From: Flavobacteriaceae bacterium | GTDB taxonomy: Bacteria; Bacteroidota; Bacteroidia; Flavobacteriales; Flavobacteriaceae | Assembly: GCA_947446635.1 (NCBI GenBank) | Contig: CANFHF010000001.1 | Span: 141,926 to 205,925, forward strand | DNA length: 64,000 nucleotides | Direction: 5' to 3' | Part shown: in pieces, positions 60,722 to 64,000 of the stretch | Layout of the letters: every line of letters starts with the position of its first letter | Numbering within the stretch: the first letter of the stretch is position 1 | Made by a program: the position numbers and the translations under genes | Notes under the pieces: model-generated | The model's input: only the letters and a program-made list of their open reading frames with translations | Told to the model about the DNA's origin: nothing | Database searches by the model: none

Positions 60722-61207
60722 ATGAAAATGAAGTATATTTTAATTCTATTGTTTGCATTTAATTTAAATGCTCAAAAACTTCACCATCAAATGTTATCCG
60801 CACAGGCTAGTAGTGCAAAAACAACTAATGGTAGAATGGTAAAACAAACTATTGGGCAGTTAAGTGTAGTTGGTAATTCTCAAAATAAGAAAATTGCTTT
60901 TAGTCAAGGTTTCCAACAGAGTAATACTAGAAAAGTTGCCCCTTCAAGCGTCAAAAGTTTAATTGTGACAACTTTATACCCTAATCCAGTAAGCGATTTT
61001 ATTAATTTTAAATTTTCGACTTCAATTAAAGGGCCTGTAAAAATTGCCTTTTTTGATCTATTAGGTAGAAAAGTATTTTCTACGGAAAAAGAAGCCCTTC
61101 AAAATAATATCTCCCTTAAGGATATTAATTTATCACCGGGTGAATATATAGTAAAACTTAATGCTCTTAATTATGAATACACAACCAAAATACTTAAAAT
61201 AAAATAA
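60722..61207 (+). CDS. Small secreted protein with T9SS type A C-terminal sorting domain
   Basis: 161 aa; signal peptide ILILLFAFNLNAQ; VKQTIGQLSVVGN...FSQGFQQ motif; CTD TLYPNPVSDFINFKF...FFDLLGRKVFS...INLSPGEYIVKLNALNYEYTTKILKIK. Confidence 0.85.
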   Translation: MKMKYILILLFAFNLNAQKLHHQMLSAQASSAKTTNGRMVKQTIGQLSVVGNSQNKKIAFSQGFQQSNTRKVAPSSVKSLIVTTLYPNPVSDFINFKFSTSIKGPVKIAFFDLLGRKVFSTEKEALQNNISLKDINLSPGEYIVKLNALNYEYTTKILKIK

Positions 61208-61208
61208 A

Positions 61209-61832
61209 ATGAAAAAAGTAACACTATTAATTGTAGTTTTTATTTCGTTCGCTAAAAGCTACTCGCAAGAAATTTATTTACAAACCGGGAGAAATTTTAC
61301 TTCGTATTCTTATAGAGGCGATAAGGAATATGATTTCAAAGCATCAGTTGGTAATTCCTTTGAAATTGGGCATTCTAAACATTTTAAAAACGTATATTGT
61401 TATACACTTGGATTGACGCTTAATGAGTATAATGCTGTTACTAATGAAGGACCAACTATTCTTTCAAGTTATAATACTCAATATTTAGGGATACAAAATT
61501 CAATTCAATTAAGAGTCTTTAAAATTAAATTTGTAGAGGTTGATGCGAAAGCCGGGATTAATATGGCTACTATTTTATATGGTAAAAACACCCAATTAGG
61601 GTTAGGTTCTGCAAATGTATTGGTTAATGATTTGACCAAAGCAGAAGCATTTAAAGGACTTGTTTTTCAACCTGTATTAGGAGTTGAGGCTAAATTAAAA
61701 CTAACGCCTCAGGGTTATTTGTCTGTTGGGTATAACAGAACAAATAGTTATAATTTATCAAATACTAAACGAATTGAGGATTACAAATTTAAAACAGACC
61801 AAATTTCATTTGGTGTTCATTTTCAAAAATAA
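61209..61832 (+). CDS. Putative outer-membrane beta-barrel protein
   Basis: 207 aa; signal peptide; alternating beta pattern (YSYRGDKEYDFKASVGNSFEIGHSKHF...YLSVGYNRTNSYNLSNTKRIEDYKFKTDQISFGVHFQK, terminal aromatic). Confidence 0.65.
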   Translation: MKKVTLLIVVFISFAKSYSQEIYLQTGRNFTSYSYRGDKEYDFKASVGNSFEIGHSKHFKNVYCYTLGLTLNEYNAVTNEGPTILSSYNTQYLGIQNSIQLRVFKIKFVEVDAKAGINMATILYGKNTQLGLGSANVLVNDLTKAEAFKGLVFQPVLGVEAKLKLTPQGYLSVGYNRTNSYNLSNTKRIEDYKFKTDQISFGVHFQK

Positions 61833-61847
61833 TTTAAAATAACAATC

Positions 61848-64000
61848 ATGAAAAAAATTCTACTATTTTTATTCTTTTTAGGAACTTCGGCCTTTTATGC
61901 ACAAACACGAGGAATTACCTATCAAGCAGTTATATACAATTCCACCCAACAAAGTTCGGCGGGTATAACTAATGTAAGCTCTCCTTTGTCTAATAAGCCA
62001 GTTTGCTTACGATTTACTATTACAGATTCTAATTCTAATACAGAATACCAAGAGACGATTACCACTAAGACCGATGAATACGGTATGGTAAATTTAATCA
62101 TTGGTACTGGAGATCAAACAAGAGGTTATGCTTCATCGTTTGATGGAATCGTTTGGGATGAAAATCAAAAAAACTTACAAGTTGCCGTAGATACAAATGG
62201 GTTGTGTTCTTCATTTGAAGAAATTAGCAACCAGGCACTTACTGCTGTGCCTTTTGCATTTAATGCTAATACAGCAATTACGGCCTACAGTGCTGAAAAT
62301 GTTACTGGAATTGTACCTATTCTTAATGGAGGTACTGGAGCTACAACCGTTAATGGTGCCAAAACTAATTTTGGTTTAGATAATGTAGATAACACAACGG
62401 ATTTAAACAAGCCTATTAGTACTGCTACAAAAACAGCTTTGGATGTTTTAACTACTGGAGCTGCAACAGAGAAATCAGATCGAATTGCTGCCGATGTCAT
62501 TTTAACTACAGGAGCTGCAAAAGAAGTTACAGATCGTACTTTTGCTGATACTGTTTTAACTACAAGTGTAACTACTGAAAGAGACGCGCGTACTGTTGCT
62601 GACAACACTTTAACTACAAGTATAAATACCGAAATTGCTAATCGTACCGCTGCTGATTTACTTTTTACTAAGGCAGTAAATGATGAAGCAGTTGCTCGTG
62701 CAACTGAAGACACGGCTATAAATAGTAAATTAACTGGTGAAATAGCAAGAGCTGGAAATGCGGAAGGCGTTTTAACTGCTGGTGCTGCAACAGAGAAAAC
62801 AGATCGAATTGCTGCCGATGTCACTTTAACTACAGGTGCTGCAACAGAGAAATCAGATCGAATTGCCGCTGACGTAATTTTAACTACAGGAGCTGCAACA
62901 GAGAAATCAGATCGAATTGCTGCTGACTTAATTTTAACTACAGGAGCTGCGACAGAAAAATCAGATCGTTTAGCTGCTGAACAAATTTTAACCACAGGAG
63001 CTTTAACAGAAAAATCAGAGCGTACATTTGCTGATATAATTTTGACTACAAGTGTAAATACTGAAAAAGATGCTCGTATAGCAGGGGATACTACTTTGTC
63101 TGCAAGTGTAACTGCTGAAAAAGATGCTCGTACCGCTGCTGATGCCCTTTTTACTTCAAGTGTAAACAATGAAGCATTAGCTCGCGCTACCGAAGATACA
63201 AATATTAAAAGTAACTTGGTTGCAGAAACAACTAGAGCAACTATTGCTGAAGGTGTTTTAACTACGGCTAATGCAGCTAGAATAGCTGACATTGCTACCT
63301 TAACGTCAAATATAAATACTGAAAAAGATGCACGTATTAATGGCGATGCTACTTTTGCTGCAAGTGTAATTACTGAAAGAGACGCACGTATAGCAGGGGA
63401 TGTAACCTTAACTACAAGTATAAATACCGAAATAGCTAATCGTACCGCTGCTGATGTACTTTTTACTACGAGAGTAAATGATGAAGCATTAGCTCGTGCT
63501 ACTGAAGATACAGTTATTAATGGTAAATTAGTTACAGAGACAGCTAGAGCAACTGAAGCGGAAAGAGTTTTAGGGGTAGGAGCTGCAAAAGAAGTAACAG
63601 ATCGTTTAGCCGATGTGAATGCTGAAGAATTAGCACGTACAAATGCAGATATTGTCTTAACGACTGGGGCCGCTAAAGAAATAGTAGATCGAATTGCCGC
63701 TGCCACTCTTGAAAATACAGCTCGCTTAGCTGCAGAAGGAGTTTTAGATGGAAAAATCACTACAGAAAAGAATGCTCGTATTGATGGTGATGCTACAGAG
63801 AAATCAGATCGTTTAGCTGCTGCTACTCTAGAAAAAACGGATCGTGTAAATGCAGAAGGAGTTTTAGATAACAAAATCACTACAGAGAAAGATGCTCGTA
63901 TCAGTGCAGTTAGTGCAGAAGCTTTAGCTCGTACTACAGCTGCCACTCTCGAAAATACAGCTCGCTTAGCTGCAGAAGGAGTTTTAGATGGAAAAATCAC
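61848..64000 (+). CDS. Large secreted phage-tail-fibre-like repetitive stalk protein (partial; runs off the window)
   Basis: Open from ATG 61848 to the window end, at least 717 codons, no stop. Signal peptide MKKILLFLFFLGTSAFYAQ; domain GITYQAVIYN...VCLRFTITDS...EYQETITTKTDEYGMVNLIIGTG...LTAVPFAFNANTA; tail-fibre-like linker ILNGGTGATTVNGAKTNFGLDNVDNTTDLNKPISTATKTALD; then 18-aa coiled-coil repeats. Absent from the supplied ORF track. Confidence 0.9.
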   Translation, partial: MKKILLFLFFLGTSAFYAQTRGITYQAVIYNSTQQSSAGITNVSSPLSNKPVCLRFTITDSNSNTEYQETITTKTDEYGMVNLIIGTGDQTRGYASSFDGIVWDENQKNLQVAVDTNGLCSSFEEISNQALTAVPFAFNANTAITAYSAENVTGIVPILNGGTGATTVNGAKTNFGLDNVDNTTDLNKPISTATKTALDVLTTGAATEKSDRIAADVILTTGAAKEVTDRTFADTVLTTSVTTERDARTVADNTLTTSINTEIANRTAADLLFTKAVNDEAVARATEDTAINSKLTGEIARAGNAEGVLTAGAATEKTDRIAADVTLTTGAATEKSDRIAADVILTTGAATEKSDRIAADLILTTGAATEKSDRLAAEQILTTGALTEKSERTFADIILTTSVNTEKDARIAGDTTLSASVTAEKDARTAADALFTSSVNNEALARATEDTNIKSNLVAETTRATIAEGVLTTANAARIADIATLTSNINTEKDARINGDATFAASVITERDARIAGDVTLTTSINTEIANRTAADVLFTTRVNDEALARATEDTVINGKLVTETARATEAERVLGVGAAKEVTDRLADVNAEELARTNADIVLTTGAAKEIVDRIAAATLENTARLAAEGVLDGKITTEKNARIDGDATEKSDRLAAATLEKTDRVNAEGVLDNKITTEKDARISAVSAEALARTTAATLENTARLAAEGVLDGKI
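62448..64000 (+). repeat. 54-nt (18-aa) tandem repeat array with 11-residue-step length variants
   Basis: About 25 units read by eye, consensus LTTGAATEKSDRIAADVI; lengths 18, 14, 29 and 40 aa. Still running at the window end. Confidence 0.93.

Follow-up and report, generated by a model that had tools for sequence, protein, structure and literature searches.

Repeat lengths of the 7a+11b kind in the predicted helical stalk of a phage-tail-fibre-like protein of Flavobacterium

Results

A mosaic fibre gene at the end of a contig

We analyzed a stretch of 64,000 nucleotides (the window), which shares its end point with the assembled contig (205925 bases), so that the open reading frame (ORF) of the fibre gene remains open at its 3' end. 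The locus comprises a cassette of three genes on the forward strand, the third of which encodes a mosaic fibre with a long repetitive stalk:

60722..61207, +, 161-aa protein with a T9SS type A C-terminal sorting domain (PF18962, E 4.9e-12; TIGR04183), first cassette gene
61209..61832, +, small secreted outer-membrane-type protein of 207 aa (only a weak DUF6268 match), second cassette gene
61848..63998, +, fibre gene, ORF of 717 aa, 3' end cut by the contig end
61848..61904, +, Sec-type signal peptide MKKILLFLFFLGTSAFYAQ, read directly from the sequence
61905..62282, +, beta-rich N-terminal domain of about 125 aa (AlphaFold strands and alignment)
62295..62444, +, linker of phage-tail-fibre type NGGTGATTVNGAKTNFGLDNVDNTTDLNKPIS (PHROG matches)
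62448..63257, +, stalk units 1-15, 18 aa each (translation split, autocorrelation, ExxxR anchors)
63258..63299, +, stalk unit 16, 14 aa, LTTANAARIADIAT (translation split)
63300..63569, +, stalk units 17-21, 18 aa each (translation split, ExxxR anchors)
63570..63743, +, stalk units 22-23, 29 aa each (18+11; translation split, ExxxR anchors)
63744..63983, +, stalk units 24-25, 40 aa each (18+11+11; split, anchors, Tandem Repeats Finder), followed by LDGKI to the contig end

The start of the fibre (MKK...AQ) is kept across 31 aligned relatives. Single-chain AlphaFold places strands at residues 23-131, mostly with high confidence, and in the alignment of relatives the N-terminal domain is strongly conserved, with C53 and C120 invariant. 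This domain had no match among curated Pfam, NCBIfam and PDB sequences, and a Foldseek search of its fold against the PDB returned nothing at E<=0.001. The same was true of a Foldseek search against viral structures (nothing at E<=0.001), and sequence searches of Pfam, NCBIfam and PDB with the fibre as query assigned no family. Residues 149-199 match PHROG tail fibre and minor tail families (best E 6.6e-9).

Of 40 genus loci, 37 have a homologue of the T9SS-tail protein upstream of the fibre, and 30 have a homologue of the protein encoded at 61209-61832 directly upstream of it; the gene order is the same. The three-gene cassette (60722-63998: T9SS type A tail, outer-membrane-type protein, mosaic fibre) is conserved in most of these loci (L075-L114), and the papers searched did not describe it. 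Contig C85 of the same genome holds a second cassette, likewise cut inside the fibre, and contigs C56 and C7 carry a third fibre, which is divergent. The genome contains at least two further fibre genes (L194, L201, L202), all of them interrupted where a contig ends; repeat arrays are the probable cause of these assembly breaks. The C-termini of relatives, used as queries for the missing 3' half in this genome, recovered only the divergent fibre on C56 and C7.

The tips and modules of relatives are interchangeable (Lcl_C, OmpA, fn3, YadA-head-like, collagen-like). The Lcl C-terminal domain (PF07603) lies at the tip of L081 with a score above the cut-off and of L119 and L160 below it. An OmpA peptidoglycan-binding domain ends the fibres L090 (scanned) and L096 (seen in the sequence), which would put their C-terminal end in the periplasm unless these fibres are anchored in a different geometry. 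S74 was absent from the genome under study. A T9SS sorting domain on the fibre was reported in none of the relatives scanned; the C-terminus of the present fibre is missing, and the T9SS tail is on the neighboring gene.

The stalk combines steps of 18 and 11 residues

The array starts at 62448, exactly residue 201 of the fibre. A first-pass annotation of this DNA had listed unit lengths of 18 (fifteen units), 14, 18 (five units), 29 (two units) and 40 (two units), and translation reproduced all of them, including the units it quoted. Its remark that the lengths add up exactly to the window end was incorrect, as they sum to 512 of 517 aa and leave LDGKI over. In units 1-15, autocorrelation gave an identity of 0.48 at lag 18, compared with a background of about 0.08, and Tandem Repeats Finder detected DNA tandem periods of 54 bp and 120 bp. 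Over the last 143 aa, there were 24 matches at lag 11 (shuffle mean 13.4, p=0.0025), 31 at lag 29 (shuffle mean 11.4) and 52 at lag 40 (shuffle mean 10.5), the latter two values never being reached in 4000 shuffles. Lags 7, 14, 22 and 33 showed no excess over shuffles in the same segment.

Strict ExxxR anchors follow each other at steps of 18 (or 36) residues up to unit 21, with a step of 50 across the 14-aa unit; after unit 21 the steps are 11, 18, 11, 18, 11, 11, 18, 11 and 11. Because anchor steps of 18 and 11 alternate in units 22-25, 29 resolves into 18+11 and 40 into 18+11+11. The 29- and 40-aa units are therefore an octadecad plus one or two hendecads, which equals a 7+11n scheme.

The length rule in relatives and in phage tail fibres

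Of 400 genomes searched within the genus, 129 contain relatives of the fibre, and a named genome collection yielded 319 candidates, mostly from Flavobacterium among the matches listed. The productive query was the N-terminal domain. The stalk alone gave no match in the named genomes, and searching 400 genomes of the family with a 54-aa stalk profile hit no further genome.

In 39 genus fibres, E-R spacings <=45 are 11, 18, 25, 29, 32 and 36, overlap artefacts aside. Extending the tally to 87 distinct fibres from Flavobacterium and other Bacteroidota gave 725 spacings, most of them 18 (641), followed by 36 (30), 11 (26), 25 (13), 32 (8) and 29 (1); the remainder consists of five double-E ambiguities and a single 7. 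The ambiguous cases, which appear in the motif tally as 19, 20 and 37, stem from segments such as AEEVAR, AEAEVTR and SEEIDR and resolve to 18 and 36. The spacing of 7 (L123) falls in the segment NEIQRAKSEENRKEE, outside any regular array. Units of 14 aa were found within the 32 = 18+14 spacings of relatives L094 and L102. The fibre of L082 (3534-10850; 2439 aa), whose N-terminus is remotely similar, contains long alternating runs of 18- and 11-residue steps and is the clearest other case of a 29-residue unit.

The arithmetic of one heptad plus n hendecads, proposed on first pass, is supported by the anchors in the window and by the E-R spacings of related fibres, all of which are of the form 7a+11b. 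The accompanying proposal, that orthologues should differ in unit length by multiples of 7 or 11, survived this comparison for the E-R unit type only. A motif-free lag scan agrees with the rule for E-R arrays. Collagen, beta-roll and beta-helix modules in the same proteins have other lags (6, 8, 12, 16, 17, 24, 26), as does a Pedobacter relative with a different repeat type (17, 20, 37). We conclude that the length rule holds for the E-R unit type only.

Tail fibres of phages pv27 and SRILMA also contain an 18-residue unit of E-R type, 18 throughout, and the units of the Vibrio phage pv27 are of the E..R..AE type found in the stalk described here. Spacings are 18 and then 32 in the fibre of Psychrobacter phage Psymv2. 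The J-like tail protein of Escherichia phage Cyrano, which like the others has ExxR repeats, mixes spacings of 33 and, less often, 32, so that a difference of one residue is tolerated; phage C48C1 has 18, 32 and 28, plus one 45 outside 7a+11b. In phages the rule is thus a strong tendency, not absolute. Unlike the present fibre, the pv27, Psymv2 and Cyrano proteins are virion proteins.

A predicted helix lacking the classical hydrophobic period

The stalk was modeled with AlphaFold as a single chain, with no alignment depth in the stalk. Units 19-25 (63408-63998), modeled without alignment, are predicted to form a nearly unbroken helix (mean pLDDT 82; helices at residues 2-55 and 57-196 of this fragment). 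The full-length model places helix at residues 192-307 and 393-574, and overall over most of 393-716. Residues 305-392, around units 7-10 with their glycine and VILTTG, are of low confidence and partly non-helical. A continuous alpha-helix is thereby predicted for the stalk, less firmly in units 7-10, and the models favor a helical fibre over a beta-solenoid, as the first-pass annotation had anticipated.

Units around residues 305-392 (about 62760-63023) are near-identical and contain glycine (LTTGAATEKSDRIAADVI); their low model confidence sets them apart from the remaining stalk. VILTTGA-like segments with glycine and beta-prone residues are found in units 1-2 and 7-10.

A Fourier transform of hydrophobicity, suggested earlier as a check of the coiled coil, peaked at 4.5 residues instead of 3.6, and power at 3.6 stayed below the shuffle 99% level. 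A hydrophobic period near 3.5-3.67 residues is accordingly absent in the window, and 3.6-residue power is weak in 438 family units. The family profile shows Leu/Ile at position 5 (about 97%), Ala at position 15 (92%), Glu/Asp at position 16 and Arg at 11 or 12; Glu8 reaches 100% by the choice of anchor, but all 20 units in the window share it as well. If a straight helix with 100 degrees per residue is assumed, E8, R12 and D16 would fall close to the face that carries L1 and L5, which makes a classical hydrophobic core doubtful. A coiled-coil stalk is probable, but its hydrophobic signature is missing. It is conceivable, although we would not expect it, that the stalk is a helical bundle with an alanine-rich core and stacked Glu-Arg pairs (conserved E8, R11/R12, D/E16) in place of a hydrophobic core, whose length would evolve by 7- and 11-residue steps that keep the ladder aligned. 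This would represent a polar-core coiled-coil variant of Flavobacterium and phage fibres.

Discussion

What the unit lengths imply

The periodicities themselves are established coiled-coil theory. A straight helix has 3.63 residues per turn, periods of 11/3 and 18/5 derive from heptads by stutters, as described by Hartmann and colleagues, and a near-straight alpha-helix forces lengths of the 7a+11b kind (PMC4786415). At 100 degrees per residue, lengths of 11, 14, 18, 25, 29, 32, 36 and 40 return the helix to within 40 degrees of its starting phase. Since any near-straight alpha-helix forces such lengths, they are no sign of a special pitch design. A near-straight to slightly right-handed coil had been proposed; the implied handedness is at best near zero, with 29/8 neutral. 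Only 40/11 is marginally right-handed, and 18/5 is marginally left-handed. Overall, the first interpretation of this array is partly supported, and its observation of the unit lengths is confirmed.

Compared with the heptad, hendecad and 18/5 coiled coils reviewed in PMC4786415, the stalk shares stutter-derived periods, its lengths being 11, 18 and their sums. It differs from them by the lack of a 3.6-residue hydrophobic repeat, by Glu, Arg and Asp residues conserved close to where the core would lie, and by the mixing of several unit lengths in one shaft. The length rule is a prediction of selection for an unbroken helix and speaks against beta-layers (offsets of 2 or 6).

A secreted surface fibre and its alternatives

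The array likely forms the shaft of a Flavobacterium surface fibre (adhesin) that is secreted, mosaic and phage-tail-fibre-like. This explanation is supported by the lengths, the rule across relatives, the helix prediction, the gene neighborhood and the modular tips in relatives. The signal peptide and the beta-rich N-terminal domain would anchor the fibre near the cell surface, where it would be displayed. The shaft would consist of alpha-helices bundled, probably as a trimer, over a long and almost uninterrupted stretch; it may have grown as 18-residue units and 11-residue sub-units were duplicated in frame. Selection on phase would keep only those indels that do not shift the phase of the helix (units of 11, 14, 18, 25, 29, 32 and 40 residues), preserving the register of the bundle while its length changes. 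The missing C-terminal tip may bind a target and thereby mediate adhesion, and the two upstream cassette genes presumably play a part in the fibre system.

Beta-layers arise from 2- or 6-residue insertions (nonads, hexads) and are described for trimeric fibres of phages and for TAAs (PMC4786415). The 18-residue unit could accordingly be a mixed alpha/beta coiled coil, in which an 11-residue helix is followed by a short extended V-I-L-T-T-G beta-layer in a trimer. The glycine- and beta-prone segments of units 1-2 and 7-10, the low model confidence at glycine-containing VILTTGA-like units and the hydrophobicity peak at 4.5 rather than 3.6 are consistent with such a structure, but the spacings of 9, 13 or 16 that it leads one to expect account for 0 of 725, the unit halves lack 9-residue similarity (lag 9 at 0.11) and AlphaFold makes units 19-25 one near-continuous helix. 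We regard it as improbable. A division of each unit into two nonads (9+9) was rejected, since similarity at 9 residues and spacings of 9 were both absent. Somewhat less probable again is that the lengths carry no structural meaning, DNA-repeat recombination copying whole units and relatives having lengths in common by descent only. Unequal crossing-over of whole units would give the observed dominance of 18-aa units (641/725), and DNA tandem repeats of 54 bp and 120 bp are present. Yet non-18 lengths occur in about nine lineages (the window, L082, L085, L094/L102, L118, L160, L171 and two phage groups), nearly all in 7a+11b; with 12 of 31 lengths allowed, twelve independent events would yield a chance of about 1e-5, a figure for which independence is approximate and the phage exceptions are left out.

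The likeness of linker and stalk to phage tail-fibre families raises the question of whether the gene belongs to a phage or prophage and encodes its tail fibre, not a protein of the cell surface. This is very unlikely, given the Sec signal peptide, the position of the gene behind those for T9SS-tailed and outer-membrane-type proteins, and neighboring genes that, as read here, look chromosomal, not viral.

The surface fibre that we favor resembles the mosaic adhesive trimer (MAT) fibres of Bdellovibrio (PMC10769870), a likeness of kind and not proven homology. In the MAT superfamily, as here (nothing at E<=0.001), the N-terminal domain is without a PDB fold homologue. However, the MAT shaft is an intertwined beta-prism/beta-helix, whereas the present shaft is predicted to be alpha-helical; MAT tips are S74 or non-S74, and those seen in relatives of our fibre are not S74; and the T9SS-tail/outer-membrane cassette sets the gene apart from MAT. 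With trimeric autotransporter adhesins of the YadA type the fibre has a long stalk in common, and YadA-head-like AIG repeats were detected in relative L119 (a weak match below the cut-off). No YadA membrane anchor was reported in eight relatives scanned with Pfam, the C-terminus of the fibre itself being missing.

If this explanation is true, stalk repeat lengths would be readable as a helix-phase code, and sequence alone would distinguish a continuously helical shaft from one built of beta-layers or a beta-helix. Dozens of Flavobacterium species would then provide natural length variants, and the genes found here behind those for a T9SS-tail and a small outer-membrane protein would belong to a common, uncharacterized family of phage-like surface fibres.
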